Assembly (NCBI RefSeq): GCF_017571525.1
Contig: NZ_JAGETY010000004.1
Location: 248,001-312,000, forward strand
From: Hymenobacter sp. BT559
GTDB taxonomy: Bacteria > Bacteroidota > Bacteroidia > Cytophagales > Hymenobacteraceae
Length of the DNA stretch: 64,000 nt
Direction of reading: 5' to 3'
The first letter of the stretch is position 1, and every line of letters begins with the position of its first letter. Made by a program: the position numbers and the translations under genes. Positions 5,758 to 18,283 of this stretch are shown here, piece after piece. The notes beneath the pieces were generated by a model. It made no database searches, was not told where the DNA came from, and saw only the letters and a list, made by a program, of their open reading frames with translations.

Positions 5758-6519
5758 TTAGATACCCTGCCCCCCGCTCACTTCAATACGCTGCGCGTCA
5801 ATCCAATTAGCTTCTGGCGTGCAGAGGAAGGCGACGACCGGGCCCACGTCGGTGGGCAGGCCCACGCGGCCCATAGCGGTGAGGCCGGCGATGTGGGCGT
5901 TTATCTCCTTGTTATCGCGGGTGCGGCCACCGCCGAAGTCAGTTTCGATGGCGCCGGGAGCCACAATATTGGCCCGGATGCGGCGGCTGGCCAGTTCCTT
6001 GGCTTGGTACTTGGTGAGCGTCTCAACCGCCGTTTTCAGGCTGGCGTAGGCCGAGGAGCCGGGGAAGGTGATGCGCGTGAGGCCCGACGAGATATTGATG
6101 ATGCCGCCCCCGTCGTTGAGCAACGGCAAGGCCTGCTGCGTCAGGAAGAACGGGCCTTTCAGGTGAATATTCACCAGCTCATCGAATTGCTGCTCAGCGG
6201 TTTCGGCAAAGGGCGCATAGTAGCCCGTGCCCGCGTTGTTGATAAGAAAATCGAACCGCTCAACGCCAAACGTGGTGCGCAGGGTAGTGCCCAACTGCTC
6301 GAAGAAAGCGCCGAACGTGCTGACCTGCGAGGCATCGAGCTGCAGCGCTACAGCCCGCTGGCCTAGCGCTGCGATTTCGGCCACCACGGCGTCGGCCGCC
6401 GCCTGCTGGGTGTGGTAGGTCAGGATAACGTCGAGGCCCTTTTTGGCGAGGTTAAGGGCCATGTCTTTGCCGAGGCCGCGGCTGCCGCCGGTTACGAGGG
6501 CGATTTTAGGGGTGCTCAT
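5758..6519 (-). CDS. Short-chain dehydrogenase/reductase (SDR)
   Basis: Classical NAD(P)-dependent SDR of 253 residues. The cofactor motif TGGSRGLG lies at about 10-17, NNAG at 94-97, the catalytic Ser in NISSG (144-145), and the YxxxK pair as Tyr158 and Lys162 (YASLK). The C-terminal IEVSGGQGI is also typical. An Arg directly after the first glycines suggests NADP preference. The natural substrate cannot be told. An AraC-type regulator gene lies 77 bp upstream on the same strand; an AraC regulator next to an SDR is common and suggests the regulator controls this gene. Confidence 0.92.
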   Translation of the reverse strand: MSTPKIALVTGGSRGLGKDMALNLAKKGLDVILTYHTQQAAADAVVAEIAALGQRAVALQLDASQVSTFGAFFEQLGTTLRTTFGVERFDFLINNAGTGYYAPFAETAEQQFDELVNIHLKGPFFLTQQALPLLNDGGGIINISSGLTRITFPGSSAYASLKTAVETLTKYQAKELASRRIRANIVAPGAIETDFGGGRTRDNKEINAHIAGLTAMGRVGLPTDVGPVVAFLCTPEANWIDAQRIEVSGGQGI

Positions 6520-6596
6520 CGGGGGTTAGAAGTAAGGTGAATGAACAAGGCAAAGGTCCGGCTCGTGGCTAGCCCCTTTCTGGTGAGTAGCCCAGT

Positions 6597-7016
6597 TTAA
6601 ATGGTGACTAGTTCCGACTTTTCGACCCGCTGCGCAGCCCACTCCTGCTCGCGGTACTGCTTGGGCGTGAGTCCGGTAAAGCGCTTAAAGAACTTCGTAA
6701 AGTTCGACGGGTCGTAGGTGAGGCTGGTGGCAATGTCGGCTACCGGGCGGGTACTGTTGCGCAGCAGCGCCTGGGCCACGGCCAGAATCTCGGCCTCGAA
6801 AAAGAAGCACGGCGGCTGCCCCGTGGTCAGCTTAATGGTGTTGCTGAGGTGCGTAGGATGAATGCAGAGCTGGCTGGCAAAATCGCGGATTTCAAGCATC
6901 TCAGTGGCGCGGCCGGCCACGATGTCGGCCACGTGGCCAGCCACCAGGCGCCGGTAGTCGGCCGTTATCTCATGCTGGCGAGCCAGAATTTTCTTAGGAA
7001 TGGAAGTCGAAGCCAT
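6597..7016 (-). CDS. AraC-family transcriptional regulator (HTH domain only)
   Basis: A 139-residue protein made mostly of the two-helix-turn-helix AraC DNA-binding domain. The second HTH reads SNFTKFFKRFTGLTPKQYRE, the signature that closes AraC proteins. No separate sensory domain is present, since the region before the HTH is only about 40 residues. The frame is open to 7064; the ATG at 7016 (MASTSIPKKILARQHEITAD) gives the family-like N-terminus. It precedes the SDR gene on the same strand and is divergent from the DinB-family gene, so its promoter lies in 7017-7140. Confidence 0.88.
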   Translation of the reverse strand: MASTSIPKKILARQHEITADYRRLVAGHVADIVAGRATEMLEIRDFASQLCIHPTHLSNTIKLTTGQPPCFFFEAEILAVAQALLRNSTRPVADIATSLTYDPSNFTKFFKRFTGLTPKQYREQEWAAQRVEKSELVTI

Positions 7017-7140
7017 GGGGACGTAACAGGCGGAGCACAGAATAGTCTTTAAAGGGCTACGCACTAAGCCAGACGATGCCGCACGCGTTTTACTTTTAGG
7101 CCTCTGCTACCACGCCTCACCTTTCCTCCCTCTTACTGCC

Positions 7141-7704
7141 ATGCTTACTGATTTTCTTTCCAGCGCCCGCAAGCAGTTTGCCTATTATAAATTGCTCGGC
7201 GAGCAGGCTATGAGCCAGGTCACCGATGAGCAGCTGCACTGGCAGCCTTCGGCCGAGAGCAACAGCCTGGCCACCATTGTGAAGCACATGGCCGGCAATA
7301 TGCTATCGCGCTGGACCGATTTTCTGACCACCGACGGCGAAAAGCCCTGGCGCGAGCGCGAAGCCGAGTTTGACGAGGACCAGGCTAGCCGGGCCGAAGT
7401 GCTGGCCCGCTGGGAAGCGGGCTGGCAGTGCCTGTTTGGAGCGCTCGATGGGCTGACGGAGGCCGACCTGGCCCGCACTATCTACATCCGCAACCAGGGC
7501 CACAGCGTGACGGAGGCTATCAACCGGCAGCTGGCGCACTACCCCTACCACGTGGGGCAACTGGTATTTATAGCCCGGCTGGCGGCGGGTGAGGCGTGGC
7601 AGTCGCTCTCCATTCCGCGCGGTAATTCGGCCGCTTACAACGCGGAAAAATTTGCGCAGCCACCGCACCGGGCGCACTTCACCGACGAAAAGCTGAGCCG
7701 CTAG
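7141..7704 (+). CDS. DinB-superfamily protein (DUF1572-like)
   Basis: A 187-residue four-helix-bundle protein of the DinB/YfiT superfamily. The conserved pattern is visible: IVKHMAGNMLSRWTDFLTTD near residue 46, and later QLAHYPYHVGQLVFIARL. The three histidines in these segments form the metal site of the superfamily. Members are either thiol transferases or of unknown activity; DUF1572 proteins have no proven reaction. The start ATG at 7141 is the first in frame. It is transcribed away from the AraC regulator. Confidence 0.88.
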   Translation: MLTDFLSSARKQFAYYKLLGEQAMSQVTDEQLHWQPSAESNSLATIVKHMAGNMLSRWTDFLTTDGEKPWREREAEFDEDQASRAEVLARWEAGWQCLFGALDGLTEADLARTIYIRNQGHSVTEAINRQLAHYPYHVGQLVFIARLAAGEAWQSLSIPRGNSAAYNAEKFAQPPHRAHFTDEKLSR

Positions 7705-7823
7705 CCCCCTCTCACGCACTAAGCCAGGTATTAAATCGACATTAATAAGCCGCGGCCGCTACAATATATTCCGCCGGAGTACGTCTTTACGGGTAGTTAT
7801 CCTTTTCCTTAACACCCGTTGCT

Positions 7824-8030
7824 ATGCTCTACCTGTTTGGCCGCCTCGCCCTGAGCGACTCGCTCGATTACCACGAAAATTATCATGACGATGATTTTCG
7901 GCCCGCCACTCACAACGAGCGTAGCAGCCCGCCCGAGCCCGACGCCCGGACCGCCGCTGACCGCCAGCTTCGCCGTGCCTCCCACCTTTCGCAAGCCGAC
8001 CGGGCTAGCGCGGGCTGCCCCAATAATTAA
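7824..8030 (+). CDS. Possible small hypothetical protein
   Basis: A 68-codon frame beginning MLYLFGRLALSDSLDYHENY and then turning hydrophilic and Arg/Asp-rich. Third codon positions look GC-rich as in neighbouring genes, which mildly supports coding. No family is recognised. It is the only gene candidate in the 417-bp stretch 7705-8121 between the DinB gene and the DHS gene; the rest of that stretch holds a terminator and nothing else I can name. It could be chance. Confidence 0.3.
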   Translation: MLYLFGRLALSDSLDYHENYHDDDFRPATHNERSSPPEPDARTAADRQLRRASHLSQADRASAGCPNN

Positions 8031-8064
8031 TCTTGACTAGCCCCTCGCCGTGGGGTTTTATAGT

Positions 8065-9877: not shown

Positions 9878-11578
9878 TCAAATCAGCATCCGCATCGGGT
9901 CTTCCAGCAGGGCCTTGAGCGTCTGCAGGAAGGCGGCACCGGTGGCGCCGTCTACCACGCGGTGGTCGCAGCTTAGCGTCACCTTCATGATGTTGCCGAT
10001 GGCTAGGGCACCATCCTTCACTACAGCGGTTTGCTTGATGCCACCCACGGCCAGGATGCAGGCATCGGGCGGGTTGATGATGGCGGTAAACTCGTCGATG
10101 CCGAACATGCCGAGGTTCGAGATGGTGAAGGTGCTACCCTCCCATTCGGCGGGTTGCAGCTTCTTGCTCTTGGCTTTGCCGGCCAGCTCTTTCACCTCGG
10201 TGGCAATCTGCGACATGCCTTTGCCATCGGCGTTGCGGATAACGGGTACCAACAGGCCTTCGTCCACGGCCACGGCCACGCCGATGTTCACCACCTTGTT
10301 CTGGCGAATGCGGTCGCCGAGCCACGACGAGTTGATGGCGGGATGCTGCTTCAGGGCCACGGCCGAAGCCTTGATAACCATGTCGTTGAACGACAGCTTC
10401 ACCGGCGACAGCTCGTTGAGCTTCACGCGGGTTTCCATGGCCTTGTCCATCAGGATTTCCATCGTGAGATAGAAATGCGGGGCCGTAAACAGGCTCTCCG
10501 ACAGGCGCTTGGCAATCACCTTGCGCATCTGCGACACCGGCGTATCGGTGTAAGTGCCTTCGGCTGCAGCCGGGGCGGGCGCAGCGGCTGGCTTAGCAGC
10601 CTGCTGCTCGGGCAGGGCTGCCTGGATGTACTCGCTGGGGGCCGAAGCGGGAGCGGCGGGGGCAGCCGCCGGAGCTGGGCTAGCGCCGGGCTGGGCATTT
10701 TCGAGGTCGCGGGCCACGATGCGGCCGTTTTCGCCGCTGCCTTTAATCTGGCGCAGGTCTACGCCTTTGTCTTTGGCAATGCTCTTGGCCAGCGGGGAGG
10801 CTAGCAGGCGGCCGGTGCTTTCAGCCTGGGGGGCAGCGGCCGGGGCCGCAGCGGCTGATGCGGACGGCGCGGCCGTTTCGGCGGGCGCGGCAGCCGCCGG
10901 GGCACCGCCGCTTTGGCCACCTAGCAGGGCCTGAATATCAGCGCCTTCTTCGCCAATGATGGCTAACACGCCATCTACGGCTACTGCTTCGCCTTCCTTG
11001 GGGCCGGTGTAGAGCAGGGTGCCATCCTCGTAGTTTTCCAGCTCCATCGTGGCTTTGTCGGTCTCGACTTCGGCCAGCACGTCGCCCGACTTCACCTTGT
11101 CGCCTACCTTTTTCAGCCAGGCGGCGATGGTGCCTTCGGTCATGGTATCGCTCATCTTGGGCATGCGCACCACGGTAGCTTTCTTGCCATTGGCGGGCGC
11201 GGCCGGGGCAGCGGGGGCCGGGGCGGGTGCAGCAGCCTGAGGAGCCGGGGCGGGCGCGGGGGAAGCAGGCGCTGGCGCGGCGGCCGCCTGGGGAGCGCTA
11301 GCCCCACCCTGGCCGTTGAGCAGGACCGAAATGTCTTCGCCTTCCTTACCCACGATGGCCAGTACGCCATCTACCGGCACCGAGTCTTTCTCCTTGGGGC
11401 CGATGTAGAGCAGGGTGCCATCCTCGTAGTTTTCCAGCTCCATCGTGGCCTTATCGGTTTCGACTTCAGCCAGGATGTCGCCCGACTTCACTTTATCGCC
11501 TACTTTTTTGAGCCAGGCCGCGATAACCCCTTCGGTCATCGTGTCGCTCATTTTCGGCATTTTTATAATTTCGGCCAT
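9878..11578 (-). CDS. pdhC: Pyruvate dehydrogenase complex E2, dihydrolipoamide acetyltransferase
   Basis: E2 forms the core of the pyruvate dehydrogenase complex and moves acetyl groups from E1 to CoA. Two lipoyl domains are present (about 1-80 and 140-215), each with the ETDKATMELE lipoyl-lysine motif (first at Lys43). Ala/Pro-rich linkers follow each, then a peripheral subunit-binding domain (LLASPLAKSIAKDKGVDL), another Ala/Pro linker, and the catalytic acyltransferase domain ending DHRVVDGATGAAF. The frame is open to 11635, but MAEIIKMPKMSDTM at 11578 is the normal E2 start. The protein is 566 residues. E1 genes are absent here, and the E3 gene is at 45252-46646. The 2-oxoglutarate complex is a less likely alternative, since those E2 proteins usually have one lipoyl domain. 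Confidence 0.95.
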   Translation of the reverse strand: MAEIIKMPKMSDTMTEGVIAAWLKKVGDKVKSGDILAEVETDKATMELENYEDGTLLYIGPKEKDSVPVDGVLAIVGKEGEDISVLLNGQGGASAPQAAAAPAPASPAPAPAPQAAAPAPAPAAPAAPANGKKATVVRMPKMSDTMTEGTIAAWLKKVGDKVKSGDVLAEVETDKATMELENYEDGTLLYTGPKEGEAVAVDGVLAIIGEEGADIQALLGGQSGGAPAAAAPAETAAPSASAAAAPAAAPQAESTGRLLASPLAKSIAKDKGVDLRQIKGSGENGRIVARDLENAQPGASPAPAAAPAAPASAPSEYIQAALPEQQAAKPAAAPAPAAAEGTYTDTPVSQMRKVIAKRLSESLFTAPHFYLTMEILMDKAMETRVKLNELSPVKLSFNDMVIKASAVALKQHPAINSSWLGDRIRQNKVVNIGVAVAVDEGLLVPVIRNADGKGMSQIATEVKELAGKAKSKKLQPAEWEGSTFTISNLGMFGIDEFTAIINPPDACILAVGGIKQTAVVKDGALAIGNIMKVTLSCDHRVVDGATGAAFLQTLKALLEDPMRMLI

Positions 11579-12370: not shown

Positions 12371-12476
12371 AAAATCGGTTGTCGTGGCGAGCCTGCGAAG
12401 CAGTTGCCCCCGCACGACACCCGCACAACTCGCCCTGGGGCAATGGCTTCGCAAGCTTGTCCTGACAACCGATTTT
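12371..12476. repeat. REP-like imperfect inverted repeat
   Basis: AAAATCGGTTGTC at 12371-12383 pairs with GACAACCGATTTT at 12464-12476. The pairing continues with mismatches through TGCGAAGC/GCTTCGCA and TTGCCCC/GGGGCAA. The right-hand arm (read as GTCAGGACAAGCTTGCGAAG) resembles the GTCATCCTGAGCTTGCGAAG arm at 9764. It sits in the divergent spacer between the histidine phosphatase and the thioesterase. Confidence 0.8.
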
Positions 12477-12485
12477 AGCCCTACA

Positions 12486-12920
12486 ATGACTCTCGACGAC
12501 GTAAAAACCTGGGTTTCGCACCGCCCTACCCTAGCCGACACGCTCGGCATTGAGCTCACGGCCCTCACCGAAACGTACCTTGAAGGCCGCATGCCCGTCG
12601 ATGGCCGCACCCACCAGCCGATGGGCCTGCTGCACGGCGGCGCGTCGGTGGCCCTGGCCGAAACGCTGGGCAGCATCGGGGCCGCCACGCGCATCGACGT
12701 GACGCGCCAAGCCTGCGTGGGCCTCGAAATCAACGCCAACCATATTAAGGGTGTGCGCGAGGGCTGGGTGCGGGGCCAGGCCACGGCCCTGCACGTAGGC
12801 CGCACCACTCAGGTGTGGGAAATCCGCATCACGCACGAAGAAACCGGGGCCCTGGTGTGCATTAGCCGCATCACGATGGCAGTGATAGACCTGCCCGCTG
12901 CCAAAGAAAAACAAGCCTGA
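12486..12920 (+). CDS. Hotdog-fold thioesterase, probable DHNA-CoA hydrolase (MenI-like)
   Basis: A 144-residue PaaI/YdiI-type hotdog thioesterase. The core QPMGLLHGGASVALAETLGS matches the catalytic helix region of E. coli YdiI, and a family-type HIKGVREGWVRGQA strand follows. The frame is open from 12384, but that part crosses a repeat; the ATG at 12486 gives the standard N-terminus. Its stop overlaps the menF start by one base (TGATG), which indicates translational coupling. Because menF, menD, menB and menE follow, I infer that it hydrolyses 1,4-dihydroxy-2-naphthoyl-CoA in menaquinone synthesis. The fold is secure; the substrate is inferred from context. Confidence 0.88.
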   Translation: MTLDDVKTWVSHRPTLADTLGIELTALTETYLEGRMPVDGRTHQPMGLLHGGASVALAETLGSIGAATRIDVTRQACVGLEINANHIKGVREGWVRGQATALHVGRTTQVWEIRITHEETGALVCISRITMAVIDLPAAKEKQA

Positions 12921-14152
12921 TGCGCACCGCTGAACCCCGGCTTCTTTCGTGGCCCACCGCCGCTAGCCCCGATGCGTGGGCCCGGCTGCGCCACTTGGTG
13001 GCGGGTGCCTTGCGCACGGGCCGGCCGCTGGCGCTCTGGCGCGAGCCGGAGGCTAGCCAGCCGCGCCTATTGGTGGCGCGCGCGCTCGAAGCTTCCTATA
13101 CGGGCCTGCCGCCCGCGCTCGATGCCCAGGCGCCGGCGGGCTTCGCATTTTTCCCGTTTCGCGATTCTGACCACAACCCGGCGCTTTTCCTGCCCGCCGA
13201 TGTGCAGTACGACCTGGCCGAACCCGCAGTGGTGCGCATTGCCCCCGCCGCCCGCGAGCTGGTGCCCAACCTCACGGCCTGGCTAGCCCTGCCCACACCG
13301 CCCGCGCTGGCCTGGCACTACAGCACCCAGCCCGCGCCGCCCGCCGCCACCGAGGCTGAGTACACGCAGCTGGTGCGCACTGGTGTAGCGGCGATTGAGG
13401 CCAAAGAAGTGGTGAAAGTGGTCACCTCGCGGGTGGCGCATCAGCCGCTGCCGGTGGGCTTCGACCCGCTAGCGGCCTTTCGGGAGCTGAGCCAGCAGTA
13501 TCCGCGCGCTTTTGTGTCGCTGGTGAGCGTGCCGGGCGTGGGCACCTGGCTAGGGGTGTCGCCCGAGGTGCTGGCCGAAGTAACGGCCGATGGCTTTTTT
13601 CACACCATGGCCCTGGCCGGCACCCAGCCGCTGGTGCCGGGCCGCTCGCCGCAAGATGCCATCTGGCGGCAGAAGGAAATCGAGGAGCAGGCCTTGGTAG
13701 CGCGCTACATCGTGAGCTGCTTCAAGCAGTTGCGCCTGCGCGAATACCACGAGGCCGGCCCGCGCACGGCGGTGGCGGGCCAGCTGTTGCACCTGCGCAC
13801 CGACTTTGAGGTCGATTTGAAAAACGTGCCCGCGGCTGCTTCGCTCGGCACCGACATGCTGCGACTGCTGCACCCTACCTCGGCCGTGGGTGGCATGCCC
13901 AAAGTAGCCGCGCTGGAGTTTTTGCAGCGCCACGAGGGCTACGACCGCGCCTATTACAGCGGCTTTTTGGGGCCGGTAAACGTGGCTAGCCCCGGCGTAT
14001 CGCGCCTCTACGTGAACCTGCGCTGCCTGCAGCTACGGCCCACCGAGGCGGTGCTTTACGCTGGCACCGGCCTCACCGCCGAGTCGGACCCTAGCCGCGA
14101 GTGGCAGGAAACGGAGCTGAAGCTGCAAACCGTAGCCGCAGTGCTGGGGTAA
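12920..14152 (+). CDS. menF: Isochorismate synthase MenF
   Basis: Converts chorismate to isochorismate, the first committed step of menaquinone synthesis. The C-terminal chorismate-binding fold is clear: EAKEVVKVVTSRV, FVSLVSVPGVGTWLGVSPEVL, HTMALAGTQP, HPTSAVGGMPK and YYSGFLGPV. Length 410 is normal for stand-alone isochorismate synthases. The start overlaps the thioesterase stop by one base. No isochorismate pyruvate lyase or siderophore genes are nearby, and menD lies downstream, so the menaquinone role is favoured over siderophore synthesis. Confidence 0.93.
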   Translation: MRTAEPRLLSWPTAASPDAWARLRHLVAGALRTGRPLALWREPEASQPRLLVARALEASYTGLPPALDAQAPAGFAFFPFRDSDHNPALFLPADVQYDLAEPAVVRIAPAARELVPNLTAWLALPTPPALAWHYSTQPAPPAATEAEYTQLVRTGVAAIEAKEVVKVVTSRVAHQPLPVGFDPLAAFRELSQQYPRAFVSLVSVPGVGTWLGVSPEVLAEVTADGFFHTMALAGTQPLVPGRSPQDAIWRQKEIEEQALVARYIVSCFKQLRLREYHEAGPRTAVAGQLLHLRTDFEVDLKNVPAAASLGTDMLRLLHPTSAVGGMPKVAALEFLQRHEGYDRAYYSGFLGPVNVASPGVSRLYVNLRCLQLRPTEAVLYAGTGLTAESDPSREWQETELKLQTVAAVLG

Positions 14153-14318: not shown

Positions 14319-16457
14319 ATGCGCCTGCTTCCATTACTCTTATTGTTGAGCAGCTGGGCGGCCCCGGCCCAGGCACAATTACCGGCTTTGCTGCAGGCGT
14401 ATGCGCGCACCAGCGCCGTGCCGGGGCGCGAGGAAGAAGCTAGCCGCTTTATAACCGAATTGTTTAAGGCCGGCACCCTGCGCACGGACCGCCTTGGCAA
14501 CCTGGTGCTGGTGGTGGGCAGTGGCAGCCCGCGCCGGCTGCTGGTGGCGCCGCTCGACGAGCCGGGCTACGTGGTGAGCCAGATTCAGGCCAATGGCTAC
14601 CTGCGGGTAGCGCCGGTGGGTGGGGGCGCCACGGGCGCGCTGTACCATCAGTTTTTGGAAGGGCACGACGTGCGCATTGGCACGGCCAGCGGGCCGCGCA
14701 ATGGTATTTCGGGCGTGCCCTCGTCGCACTACGACAACCTGCGGGCTACGCCCGAGCGCACCCTGGCCCCCTTTTCGTGGCAGGCAGCTTATTTGGATGC
14801 AGGCGCGGGCTCGGCGGCAGCCGTGGCACAGCAGGGCATTCGGCTGCTAGACCCCGTAACGCTCGAAAAAAAGCCCGTGCTGGTGGGCCAGCAGTGGGTA
14901 GCCGCGCCGGCCATGCGCGAAAAGGCCGCCGCCGTGGCGCTGGCTACCGCCGCCCAGTCCCTGCTGGCTGCGCCGCCCGCCGGCACCACGGTCATCGCCT
15001 GGACAACCCTCGACCTGCTCAATGGCAAGGGCTTTGAGGCCGTAGCCAATCAATATGGCCCCTTCAAAGAGGTGTACCGATTCGACCGCAATCTGGAAGC
15101 CGAGCCCTCTGGCACCGGCCAGTTTTTAGCTGACCAGGAGTTCTCCTCCTTACCCGGCCAAATTCTGGCCACGCCCACCCGGGCAGCCCGCAAGCCAGTA
15201 CTGCCCAATGCCCAACTTGCTGCTGCCCACACCTACCTGCTAGGCCTGCCCGCCCGCTACGCCCACACGCCCGTCGAGGCTGTGGCCGTGGCCGATGTGC
15301 AGCAGCTCATCAGGGCGTGGCTGGCGGCAGCGGGCGCACCGGGCGCCACGGTAGCCACCGTGGCTAGCCCCCCTGCCGTGCCAAAACCGCCTGCGCCCGC
15401 CCCCACGCCCGAAGCCCAGCTCTTGGCCGGCCTGGTGGGCCAGTACGGCGTGAGCACGGCCGAGACACCAGTTCGCGAGTTCATCGCCAAGCAGCTACCA
15501 GCCTGGGCCAAGCCCACTATAGACCAGGCCGGTAACCTTATTTTGAACTTCGGCCAGGGCAAGAAGCACCTCGTCTTCGTGGCTCACATGGACGAGGTAG
15601 GCTTCGTAGTCGATTCTATTCGGCCCGATGGGCGGCTGGTGCTCAGCCTGAAGGGCGGCGCGTTTCCGTGGCTGTGGGAGGCGCAGCCGGCCCTGCTGCA
15701 CCGCCCGGGCCAAGCCGATGTGCCAGCCGTGTTTGAGCCCCGCCCGCAGTATCTGAGCGCTACTAAGCGGGCTGCGGCCGCTATGCCCACCGTGTTTGCG
15801 GGCTACGCCTCGGCGCAGCAGGCGCGGGCGGCGGGCATCGAGCCGGGCCGCACCACCGTGACCATGCCCAAGGCGCTGCGCCCGCTAGGCCCCACCCGGG
15901 CCGCCGCCCGCGGCCTCGACGACCGCGTGGGCTGCGCGGCCCTGCTGCTGAGCCTGCGCCACCTCGACCCCGCCAAGCTGCCCTGCCGCGTCACCTATGT
16001 GTGGTCGACGGGCGAGGAAATCGGCCTGCTGGGTTCAGCCTTTGCCGCCCAGAGCCTGCGCGACGCCAACGTGGTGTACCCGATTGACACCTTCGTGTCG
16101 TCGGACGCGCCGCAGGAGTCGCCTGCCTTTGGCTACTGCCCGCTCGGGCAGGGCGCGGTCATTCGGGTAGTCGAGAGCATCAATTTTGCGCGGCGCGACC
16201 TGGTGCAGGGCGTGCACGCGCTGGCCGACCGCCAGCATATTGCTATTCAAGAGGGTATGACGGTGGGCGGCACCGACGGGCTGGAGTTTATGAACTACGG
16301 TATTCCGTCGGTACCGCTGTCGTGGCCCGGCCGCTACTCCCACTCGCCCGTAGAAGTGCTCGACTACCGCGACATGGCCAGCCTGGTGCGCCTGCTCGGC
16401 GCGCTGCAAGCCGAGGCCCCGGCCACCAAGCCCGGCCGCCCCACCCACCGCCCCTAA
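14319..16457 (+). CDS. Secreted tandem M42-family metallopeptidase with degenerate N-terminal copy
   Basis: A 712-residue protein with a signal peptide (about 1-20, ending AQA) and two M42-like domains. The C-terminal domain (about 365-700) has the expected metal and catalytic residues: VAHMDEVGFV (His423), GLDDRVG (Asp534), STGEEIGLLG (Glu566/Glu567), SSDAP (Asp596) and RYSHSPVE (His675). The N-terminal domain (about 21-345) repeats the same order, but has VAPLDEPGYV (His replaced by Pro78) and LDLLNGKGFE in place of the Glu-Glu motif. It keeps RYAHTPVE (His315). A Pro/Ala linker joins them. Usual M42 enzymes are single-domain, cytosolic and about 350 residues. It lies between menF and menD, 8 bp before menD, so it is probably co-transcribed, although no link to menaquinone is known. 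Confidence 0.88.
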   Translation: MRLLPLLLLLSSWAAPAQAQLPALLQAYARTSAVPGREEEASRFITELFKAGTLRTDRLGNLVLVVGSGSPRRLLVAPLDEPGYVVSQIQANGYLRVAPVGGGATGALYHQFLEGHDVRIGTASGPRNGISGVPSSHYDNLRATPERTLAPFSWQAAYLDAGAGSAAAVAQQGIRLLDPVTLEKKPVLVGQQWVAAPAMREKAAAVALATAAQSLLAAPPAGTTVIAWTTLDLLNGKGFEAVANQYGPFKEVYRFDRNLEAEPSGTGQFLADQEFSSLPGQILATPTRAARKPVLPNAQLAAAHTYLLGLPARYAHTPVEAVAVADVQQLIRAWLAAAGAPGATVATVASPPAVPKPPAPAPTPEAQLLAGLVGQYGVSTAETPVREFIAKQLPAWAKPTIDQAGNLILNFGQGKKHLVFVAHMDEVGFVVDSIRPDGRLVLSLKGGAFPWLWEAQPALLHRPGQADVPAVFEPRPQYLSATKRAAAAMPTVFAGYASAQQARAAGIEPGRTTVTMPKALRPLGPTRAAARGLDDRVGCAALLLSLRHLDPAKLPCRVTYVWSTGEEIGLLGSAFAAQSLRDANVVYPIDTFVSSDAPQESPAFGYCPLGQGAVIRVVESINFARRDLVQGVHALADRQHIAIQEGMTVGGTDGLEFMNYGIPSVPLSWPGRYSHSPVEVLDYRDMASLVRLLGALQAEAPATKPGRPTHRP

Positions 16458-16465
16458 CCGACTTC

Positions 16466-18283
16466 ATGAACCCACTCCAAGCCGTTTTCAACATCGCCGA
16501 AATCTGCGCCCGGCACGGTATTACTGACGTTATTCTGTCGCCGGGCTCGCGCTCGGCGCCACTCACGCTGGCGTTTGCGCGCCACCCGGCCTACCAGGGC
16601 CTGCTGCGCGTGGTGCCCGACGAGCGCGCGGCCGCTTTCATCGGGCTGGGCATTGCGCAGGCCACGCGGCGGCCGGTGGTGCTGGTGTGCACCAGCGGCA
16701 CAGCCGGCCTCAACTATGCGCCAGCCGTGGCGGAGGCCTTTTTTCAGCAAATTCCGCTGTTAATTCTCACCGCCGACCGCCCGCCCGAATGGATAGACCA
16801 GCTCGACGGCCAGACCATCCGGCAGCGCAATCTCTACGGCGCACACGCCAAGGGCACCTTCGACTTCCCGGCCGATACCTCGCACGCCGACGCCAAGTGG
16901 CACGCCGAGCGGATTATCAATGAAGCTATTAACCTGACCCTAGCGGGCCCCGCCGGCCCGGTGCACGTGAATGTGCCACTGCGCGAGCCTTTTTACCCCA
17001 AGGCCGGCGAAGAAGTAGCATATGAGGCCAGCGTCAAGATTATCCGCGACGAGCACGCCACTACCACCCTGCCTCCCGGCGAGATTCTGGACTTGCGCCG
17101 GCGGCTGCGCGATGCCGGGCAGGTGCTGGTAGTAGCAGGCCAGCAGGCCGGGCAGGCCAGCCTCACGGCCGCGCTTTACGAGTTTGCCGCCGTGCGCCAG
17201 CTGCCCGTGGTGGCCGACAGCATCGCCAATCTGCAAGACGTGCCGGCCGTGCGTAGGCAGGATATTTTTCTGGCGGGCTTGTCTAAAGAGCAGAAGGAGT
17301 CCCTCAAGCCCGACTTGCTCATCACCTTTGGCCAGTCGCTGATTTCTAAGGCGTTAAAGCTGTTTTTGCGCGAAGCTTCCCCGGCCCAGCACTGGCATTT
17401 GCAGGCTAGCGGCGAGGCTGCCGATACCTTTCGCAGCCTCACCCGGGTTATTCGGGTGGCGCCGACGGTGTTTTTTCAGCAGCTTACCGCTTCCGAAACC
17501 AAAGACTACAACCGGGCCGAAAGCCTTGGCCCTGGCTACTTTCTCAGCCTGCGCGAAGCCCAAAAGGTGACGGAGGACACCGCGCTGGCCGAAAGCCCGG
17601 ATGCCCCGGCCGCCCCTAGCCTGACGTGGCAACAGGCCGACAGCCTGGCGGCTAACTTCCTGGCTCGCTTTTTTGCCGCCGAAGGCCAGCCGTTCAACGA
17701 GTTTTCGGCCATGCAGCGGGCGTTGGCCAGCCTGCCCGAGGGCACCGCCCTGCACCTGGCCAACAGCATGGCCGTGCGCTACGCCAACATTATCGGCCTG
17801 CCCGAGGGCAAGCAAGTAGCGGTGTTTGCCAACCGTGGCACCAGCGGCATCGACGGCTGCACCAGCACGGCCGTGGGGGCGGCCCTGGCCCAGCCCGAGC
17901 GGCCGGTGGTGCTACTGACCGGTGACGTGGCGTTTTTCTACGACCGCAACGCCTTCTGGCACAACTACCCCGCGCCCAACCTGCGGGTGGTGCTCTTCAA
18001 CAACCACGGTGGCGGCATTTTCCGGCTCATCGACGGACCGCGCCAGCAGCCCGAGCTCGACGAGTTTTTTGAAACTCATCAGGCACTTACGGCCGAAAAC
18101 CTGTGCCGCGATTTTAAGCTGCGCTATTTGCCCGTTTCATCTTTTGCTGAACTTGAAGCCGCGCTACCGGTTTTCTTTGCGGCCGAAAGCGGCGCGGCAG
18201 TGCTGGAAATCTTTACCGATTCCAAAACCAACGCGGCGTTTTTTGAAGAATACCGTACCGCTGTTAAGCAAGCTTTTTCTTAA
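16466..18283 (+). CDS. menD: MenD, SEPHCHC synthase (thiamine-diphosphate enzyme)
   Basis: Joins isochorismate and 2-oxoglutarate in the second step of menaquinone synthesis. The start [20 protein letters not shown] and the following [15 protein letters not shown] are the MenD signature, with a TPP-type N-terminal domain. [18 protein letters not shown] followed by [12 protein letters not shown] is the diphosphate/Mg site in the C-terminal domain. Length 605 exceeds E. coli MenD at 556 but is common in Bacteroidota. The frame is open upstream to 16322 inside the peptidase gene; the ATG at 16466, 8 bp after the peptidase stop, is the real start. Confidence 0.96.

Follow-up and report, generated by a model that had tools for sequence, protein, structure and literature searches.

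A tandem M42 protein with complementary halves

A 64,000-nucleotide stretch of DNA from Hymenobacter sp. BT559 (contig NZ_JAGETY010000004.1, positions 248,001 to 312,000; hereafter, the window) harbors a gene whose 712-amino-acid (aa) product consists of two domains related to M42 aminopeptidases. We propose, with moderate confidence, that this product is an exported M42-type aminopeptidase which forms a single-chain, asymmetric pseudo-dimer, in which a dead N-terminal domain (N-domain) donates a loop to the live site of the C-terminal domain (C-domain). The apparently dead copy seems to have been kept because it lends a His-bearing loop which the live copy has lost: the active-site-loop His is present in 19/19 N-domains, 0/19 C-domains and 35/36 single-domain M42s.

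Residue counts refer to a comparison set of 19 N-domains, 19 C-domains and 36 single-domain M42s, the latter comprising 28 of the 29 loci L137 to L165 and 8 of 41 further proteins. The half alignments were built without L128 and L131 (partial), L132 (split; restored for the 19-row comparison) and the near-relatives L124, L130 and L133, and a first pass with 18 N-domains, 18 C-domains and 39 single-domain sequences gave the same picture. PfTET3 numbering was transferred by counting along the alignment, in which His117 corresponds to His137 of the window protein, Asp137 to Asp160, and Arg311, Tyr312 and His314 to Arg672, Tyr673 and His675. The features of the gene are as follows.

14319..16457, + strand: whole gene of the tandem M42 protein, 712 aa; open reading frame (ORF) with ATG start, PF05343 in both halves
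14319..14378, + strand: signal-peptide-like segment, residues 1-20 (MRLLPLLLLLSSWAAPAQAQ), by sequence features
14382..15353, + strand: N-terminal M42 pseudo-domain, residues 22-345; profile match to PhTET1, metal ligands lost
14550..14552, + strand: Pro78, which replaces the first metal-binding His (18/19 Pro, 1 Ala)
14727..14729, + strand: His137, the M42 active-site-loop His (19/19), aligned to the Pro-Pro-His of PhTET1 and PfTET3
14796..14798, + strand: Asp160, equivalent of PfTET3 Asp137 (19/19)
15339..15410, + strand: Pro/Ala-rich linker, residues 341-364; weakest constraint of the compared regions, dip in model confidence (predicted local distance difference test, pLDDT)
15411..16418, + strand: C-terminal catalytic M42 domain, residues 365-700; structure match to 9qr6, ligands invariant
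15585..15587, + strand: His423, metal ligand (19/19)
15750..15752, + strand: Tyr478, which in the catalytic domain takes the place of the loop His (Tyr 15, Trp 3, Phe 1; His 0/19)
15918..15920, + strand: Asp534, bridging metal ligand (19/19)
16014..16019, + strand: Glu566 (general base) and Glu567 (metal ligand) (19/19)
16104..16106, + strand: Asp596, metal ligand (19/19)
16332..16343, + strand: Arg672-Tyr673-Ser674-His675, proposed partner of Asp160 and last metal ligand (Arg 19/19, Tyr 18/19, His 19/19)

The presence of two M42-like domains in tandem, as proposed in a first-pass annotation of the window, was borne out by two types of comparison. The Pfam family Peptidase_M42 (PF05343) exceeded its cut-off for both halves (C-half, profile positions 1-292, E of 1.7e-49; N-half, best match to positions 1-163, E of 1.8e-24), while a profile-profile comparison of the N-half with the C-half returned a probability of 99.8 over 302 columns, by virtue of which the tandem nature lies far beyond chance. 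When searched against M42 sequences of the PDB with hmmsearch, the N profile matched PhTET1 (2cf4; E of 2e-43) over positions 2-316 of its 325, and the C profile gave a best E of 8.7e-67. No family cut-off was reached in an NCBIfam scan of the protein, and no M18 profile matched the whole protein or either half in Pfam at E values up to 1, a search in which the HMMER filters drop most weak matches. Twelve more complete orthologues, with identities of 72-90%, were found in Hymenobacter.

In place of the single-domain subunit of ~350 aa typical of the TET enzymes, the protein thus comprises 712 aa and two domains; it may also depart from their cytosolic location, its N-terminus being signal-like by hydropathy and motif. 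Its start combines an Arg at position 2, a hydrophobic run and an AQA|Q motif, and a hydrophobic run near the start is apparent by hydropathy in 21/21 full-length rows of the family alignment. The signal peptide of the first-pass annotation is, in this respect, supported by sequence features, and export itself is presumed from them.

Complementary degeneration of the two domains

The C-domain retains the five metal ligands and the catalytic Glu that define an M42 site, all six residues being present in 19/19 rows. The N-domain lacks this set. The first His is found in 0/19 rows, the bridging Asp in 0/19 (the Asp534 equivalent being replaced by Lys, Arg, Gly, Ala, Thr, Asn or Glu), the second Glu in 0/19 (the Glu567 equivalent being Leu, Trp, Ser or Gln) and the last His in 2/19. 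The Asp596 column holds Asp in 2/19 and Glu in 6/19 N-domains, the alignment being unsure there, and it is poorly aligned in the single-domain set as well (Asp 20/36). Each residue named by the first-pass annotation (P78, H423, D534, E566, E567, D596 and H675) is present in the window protein, and its proposal of an inactive N-terminal copy gains from the replacement of the first His by Pro78; the loss of the Glu-Glu motif, which it had also invoked, is partial, with Glu or Asp retained at the general-base (E566) position in 14/19 N-domains. Similarly, the RYAHTPVE segment said to be kept in the N-domain does occur in the window protein (its His being H316), but this His is unconserved, occurring in 5/13 Hymenobacter orthologues and 2/19 rows of the wider set. 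Profiles identify almost the full length of the N-half as M42, as opposed to an unrelated fold, and the alignment revealed no new set of conserved ligands from which a complete metal site could be built, the invariant acids of the N-half (E38, D57, D80, E81, D160 and E320) being invariant in single-domain M42s too. The N-domain is, to judge by its residues, apparently an inactive M42 homologue.

The losses of the two domains complement one another. Of the three His residues kept by at least 35/36 M42s, the C-domain retains H423 and H675 and is without the loop His, while the N-domain retains the loop His alone, His137 being its sole conserved His. The equivalent of PfTET3 Asp137 is present in 19/19 N-domains, 5/19 C-domains and 36/36 single-domain M42s, and the equivalent of Arg311 (Arg or Lys) in 7/19, 19/19 and 36/36, respectively. 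The loop His and the metal site, which share a domain in other M42s, are accordingly placed on different domains of the tandem protein. If the loop acts across the dimer, each half would keep what the other half needs, the reverse direction having decayed in most rows, and this complementary pattern by itself favors an action of the loop His in trans. An earlier suggestion that the pseudo-domain might control oligomerization or substrate access can be given a more specific form, in that the only His conserved in the N-domain is the active-site-loop His which the C-domain is without.

Structure predictions agree with a fixed arrangement of the domains. The single-chain AlphaFold2 model of the window protein (21 family rows) has a mean pLDDT of 87.9 and a predicted template modeling score (pTM) of 0.86, and that of the homologue from Terriglobus albidus (17 rows) has values of 83.2 and 0.85; the high pTM of both models suggests that the domain arrangement is predicted to be fixed. 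Mean pLDDT in the window model is 86 for the block bearing the loop His (residues 131-140) and 66 for linker residues 351-360. The modeled C-domain (residues 363-702) superposes on 9qr6 with a Z of 42.2 and a root mean square deviation of 1.8 over 337 aligned residues, and on M18 chains with a Z of about 24-28. A fold search with the whole model returns mainly the C-domain, and the N-domain fold is assigned from the profiles and the whole-protein model.

Proposed mechanism and its precedents

The closest precedent for the proposed mechanism is human DNPEP, an M18 enzyme in which His170 from the opposing subunit touches a bound substrate analogue and thereby completes the site, and in which the His170Phe exchange abolishes activity; its authors describe the loop His as conserved in M42 enzymes, whose loops are disordered or partly so (PMC3472314). 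In PhTET2, His123 may be near the active site of the adjacent subunit, and the H123F, H123Y and H123K exchanges, as well as changes to the loop or the Pro-Pro, reduce activity, with a Michaelis constant up to ~tenfold worse (PMC8993905). The residues found at the loop position of the C-domains include Tyr and Phe, kinds that weakened TET2 on mutation. With respect to Asp160, its PfTET3 equivalent, Asp137, is bridged from the other subunit of the dimer by Arg311 and Tyr312, the neighbors of metal ligand His314 (PMC4745047, figure 4 legend).

By analogy, the C-domain would bear the sole working two-metal site, and the N-domain would represent a dedicated partner which keeps the PDZ-like dimerization domain and the active-site loop. 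Reaching over a pseudo-twofold interface, the N-domain is proposed to bring His137 into contact with the substrate at the C-terminal site and, by means of Asp160, to hold Arg672 and Tyr673 next to the metal ligand His675. The opposite half of this interface may have been allowed to decay, the C-domain having lost its loop His and the N-domain its metal site and, mostly, the Arg. The protein is likely to serve nutrition by trimming peptides beyond the cytoplasm and to have no part in menaquinone synthesis. The tandem architecture, the homology of the domains, the residue patterns, the selection, the split form and the gene context are observed directly, and from them we infer dimer-like packing, trans action of His137, peptidase activity, export and role; the data described above lend support to export, to one working metal site, to a stable N-C pseudo-dimer and to His137 acting in trans, and at most hint at a nutrient role. 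They likewise hint at a free pseudo-dimer instead of a tetrahedral shell, because the N-domain is without part of the catalytic half near the TET apex contacts.

Several observations weigh against this proposal. The distance from the loop His to the site in crystal structures ranges from about 4 to over 20 Å, and in the cryogenic electron microscopy structure of TET2 it exceeds 20 Å (PMC8993905), so that trans action is unproven in M42 itself. The CelM dimer is barely active in comparison with the dodecamer (6.4 versus 291.7 µmol/min/µmol; PMC3511314), and long peptides are much poorer substrates for TET dimers than for the dodecamer (PMC4745047); by analogy, such low activity would speak against an active free pseudo-dimer, and the tandem protein may, for this reason, need a larger assembly or have ordered its loop. 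TmPep1050, on the other hand, is probably a dimer in solution and has leucine aminopeptidase activity (PMC3511314).

The alignments and models also contain features that sit poorly with the proposal. The loop of the C-domain is shortened in Bacteroidota, yet it is of full length (18-21 residues; 14-21 in M42) in the C-domains of L125, L126, L127, L129 and L132. A His occurs at position 477, beside Y478, in 3/14 Hymenobacter C-domains, and H461, which could have some role, is near-invariant in C-domains (17/19; 29/36 in M42). A further, less conserved His of M42 enzymes (27/36), at column 593 where the alignment is poor, is missing from the C-domain as well, so that its differences go beyond the loop His. 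The Asp and the Arg, as counted above, still persist in 5/19 C-domains and 7/19 N-domains, respectively; a single ancestral event, retained over deep time, probably underlies each loss, and the counts measure conservation, not independent replicates. Finally, the loop region of the Terriglobus model (residues 141-160) is of low confidence, with block means of 56 and 61.

Alternative functions of the N-domain and selection upon it

The foremost alternative, which we consider unlikely while granting it some weight, is that the N-domain is merely structural, stabilizing the catalytic domain or a larger particle via the PDZ-like interface, with His137 kept for folding or for the interface. Such a role would fit the distribution of conservation, as mean pairwise identity is 45.8% for the PDZ-like part of both the N-domain and the C-domain, but 37.8% versus 59.6% for the second catalytic part, and many N-invariants are Gly and other positions common to M42. 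Moreover, TETs treated with a chelator fall apart to dimers or monomers (PMC4745047), and a metal-free domain may accordingly need fusion to hold. What a structural role leaves unexplained is the loss by the C-domain of a His kept in nearly all M42s while the N-domain keeps it as its sole conserved His.

It is improbable, in our view, that the N-domain has instead come to bind something new, such as a peptide, a wall polymer or a partner protein, through its LDEPGY motif and an altered cleft. The motif (L79-D-E-P-G-Y84) is unbroken in 21/21 rows, and P82 occupies 19/19 N rows at a position where the C-domain has Val, Leu, Ile or Thr and M42s have Ile or Val; however, D80 and E81 are invariant in the C-domain and M42 too, and the invariance of the motif is partly built in, since part of it was used in the pattern scan described below. 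There is, in addition, no added domain or insert in the N-domain, and by eye no general gene partner outside Hymenobacter, though a fucosidase-like gene lies upstream in 3/16 loci.

The suggestion that the N-domain is a neutral relic of tandem duplication heading for loss, which could draw on the lost metal site and on a second catalytic part ~25 residues shorter than that of the C-domain (median spacing 84 versus 108), was rejected on selection and conservation and deserves hardly any credence: invariant N-domain blocks are found across phyla, the domain is retained even as a separate gene (L132), and the median pairwise ratio of nonsynonymous to synonymous substitution (dN/dS) among the 13 Hymenobacter orthologues is 0.146 for the N-domain versus 0.152 for the active half (77/78 pairs each). 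These values come from a simple Nei-Gojobori count, not a site model, with pairs of undefined dS or dS below 0.05 left out (1/78 for N, 1/78 for C and 22/78 for the linker); the linker, with a median of 0.46 (56/78 pairs), is under the weakest constraint of the regions compared. The N-domain is under purifying selection equal to that on the catalytic domain and is not decaying.

N-domains, C-domains and single-domain M42s form three separate groups in a phylogenetic tree, each with support of 100/99. The N and C subtrees branch broadly alike, with L132 placed differently in each and a caution as to long branches. The tree is unrooted and compatible with an origin of the halves either by internal duplication or by two separate recruitments.

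Distribution and a split form in Candidatus Eisenbacteria

Conservation of the tandem form across the Hymenobacteraceae, a question raised by the first-pass annotation, was not observed: the N-domain was detected (E of 1.4e-150 or lower, the next best matches being at ~1e-8) in 13/204 family genomes, 120 of which are Hymenobacter by count, and all 13 belong to Hymenobacter. One further genome (G028) harbors a C-terminal fragment of the tandem gene at a contig end. A pattern scan of an 84,980-species collection, which finds solely copies with APLDEPGY or L[FY]HQFLEG, recovered 23 loci. By record title, 7 of these are from Hymenobacter and 9 from other Bacteroidota, while 6 are from Acidobacteriota, Terriglobus albidus among them, and 1 is from Candidatus Eisenbacteria. 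Among an even phylum sample of 395 genomes, the N-domain was found at an E of 1e-40 or lower in the window's own genome alone, and a plasmid search returned 49 records, none of which covers 80% of the query (the best 20 of the 49 cover 39-48%). The tandem family thus looks wide but sparse, and rare.

The Eisenbacteria contig (L132) encodes the two halves as separate genes, an N-half gene of 342 aa (locus positions 5911-6939) and a C-half gene of 368 aa (6936-8042), which overlap by 4 nucleotides (GTGA) and each begin with a hydrophobic, signal-like segment. This pair is the only form with subunits of single-domain M42 size. The loop His and the Asp are encoded by the N-gene, together with an Arg (RYAR), while the C-gene has the metal ligands, a Tyr at the loop position and the Asp still present. 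A frameshift or assembly artefact was considered and rejected, as the downstream gene has its own signal-like segment in place of the linker and the genes share the GTGA overlap; the split form is known from one metagenome-assembled genome contig. An obligate 1:1 partner would be expected to occur in this way, as a separate gene of a pair in one lineage and fused in others. More tentatively, and with some doubt, these proteins may represent a widespread but rare family of exported "half-site" M42s, in which one subunit, a pseudo-peptidase, has turned into a dedicated donor of the loop and provides the active site of the other with its His in trans, the two working as a free pseudo-dimer outside any TET shell; the donor would be fused in Bacteroidota and Acidobacteriota and encoded by an overlapping partner gene in Eisenbacteria.

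Genomic context and the men locus

In the window, the tandem gene is flanked by two genes of menaquinone synthesis.

12920..14152, + strand: menF-like isochorismate synthase (NCBIfam TIGR00543, E of 7.1e-57, below the curated cut-off)
16466..18283, + strand: menD (NCBIfam TIGR00173, over cut-off)

The gap between the stop codon of the tandem gene and the ATG of menD (16466) is 8 bp, precisely as annotated previously, so that the two are probably co-transcribed; a scan found 0 promoter sites (0.2 in shuffled sequence) and 3 terminator sites (2.4 in shuffled sequence). The tandem gene lies between menF and menD in 11/13 complete Hymenobacter copies, and the G028 fragment adjoins menD. It does not always adjoin menD, however: the remaining two copies lie on a 46.8-kb contig of G118 (H. 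siberiensis) and a 38.0-kb contig of G029, the G029 copy starting 486 bases from its contig end, with no men match on the contig stretches fetched, and none of 16 non-Hymenobacter loci has a men gene within ~6 kb or to the contig end. In 20 comparator Hymenobacter men loci, menI, menF, menD and menB keep the same order, with 27-457 nucleotides between the menF and menD matches; these loci were picked from genomes without the tandem gene, and its absence there is by choice and not a finding. The enzymes encoded by menI, menF, menD and menB act in the cytosol, and the signal-like start of the tandem protein points outside it. A link to menaquinone synthesis, which the place of the gene between menF and menD might suggest, was for these reasons rejected on gene context and strikes us as scarcely credible; the men-locus position looks incidental.

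A tree built quickly from Men proteins places the 12 carriers at the men locus in a single group of 18, together with 6 non-carriers, and the pattern needs at fewest 6 changes, at least 4 of them forced; it is read as one insertion at the men locus followed by repeated loss. The copies of G118 and G029 (loci L078 and L079) are likely plasmid-borne, the G118 contig encoding a Rep3 initiator and a ParA-type ATPase. By eye, an ORF for an isochorismatase-like hydrolase adjoins the tandem gene on both, and transposase- or recombinase-like ORFs lie near it.

Eight chosen neighbors outside Hymenobacter were scanned and identified as an alpha-L-fucosidase, a penicillin amidase, an M19 dipeptidase, an S58 peptidase, a sulfatase, a metallo-beta-lactamase-fold protein, an outer-membrane barrel protein and a PSCyt/PSD1 protein. 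A fucosidase-like ORF lies directly upstream in L118, L122 and L133 (by eye, that of L118 having been scanned), two of which are near copies. These neighbors fit scavenging, weakly, better than they fit a pathway.

Additional observations concern the men genes and a further M42-like gene. The menD genes of two related Hymenobacter genomes, G005 (L072, ~10580-10600) and G020 (L073, ~10600-10625), share the same frame break near codon 107, in a run of C, and their pieces are otherwise 75-93% identical to the window MenD; a shared mutation, frameshifting or sequencing error would each fit. The menF of G005 (L072, 6759-7999) consists of two ORFs in different frames, and the menD of G010 (L104, 1110-2974) matches in two frames. 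Orthologue matches to the MenI-like thioesterase of the window (12384-12920) begin at residue 35 (about 12486), and the ORF, taken from an upstream GTG, is probably too long. The window's own genome encodes another divergent M42-like gene (G000:C1:19631-20155, a 311-aa frame), which matches profile positions 107-292 alone and is possibly like Cytophaga hutchinsonii 3cpx.

Significance and comparison with known systems

In M42 enzymes, the conserved loop His may serve the active site of its own subunit or that of a neighbor, given that structural distances run from about 4 to over 20 Å and that the loops are often disordered (PMC8993905, PMC3472314). Mutations of homo-oligomers hit all subunits at once; in the tandem protein, His137 can be mutated without touching the catalytic domain, because the His and the metals lie on different halves of one chain. 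The protein would, therefore, represent a direct test case for the long-suspected cross-subunit mechanism of the M42 family, and it documents in that family a strongly selected pseudo-peptidase domain.

The open literature searched, which omits most subscription papers, listed no M42 with a tandem arrangement or a pseudo-domain. Insulysin-type M16 peptidases, whose fold and family are unrelated to M42, likewise combine an active and an inactive half in one chain, in their case around a clam-shell chamber. Among M42/TET enzymes (PhTET1, PhTET2, PfTET3, M. jannaschii MJ0555 and TmPep1050), the likeness is one of family, both tandem halves being M42 by profile and the C-domain, with its full two-metal site, superposing at a Z of about 42. 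The tandem protein differs from them in having two domains per chain, one of which is without a metal site, in its signal-like start, in the placement of loop His and metal site on different domains and in the absence from the N-domain of ~25 residues of the second catalytic part, a region which we infer to be part of the TET oligomer contact. With the M18 enzyme DNPEP it would share the mechanism proposed here, a loop His from the opposing subunit, but DNPEP is described as a dodecamer of like subunits (PMC3472314), whereas the tandem protein has one partner dedicated and fused. The PhTET2-TET3 hetero-dodecamer similarly unites two different M42 subunits in one particle; its six TET2 and six TET3 subunits are, however, each an enzyme (PMC4745047), while the partner in the tandem protein is degenerate and fused to the domain it is proposed to serve.

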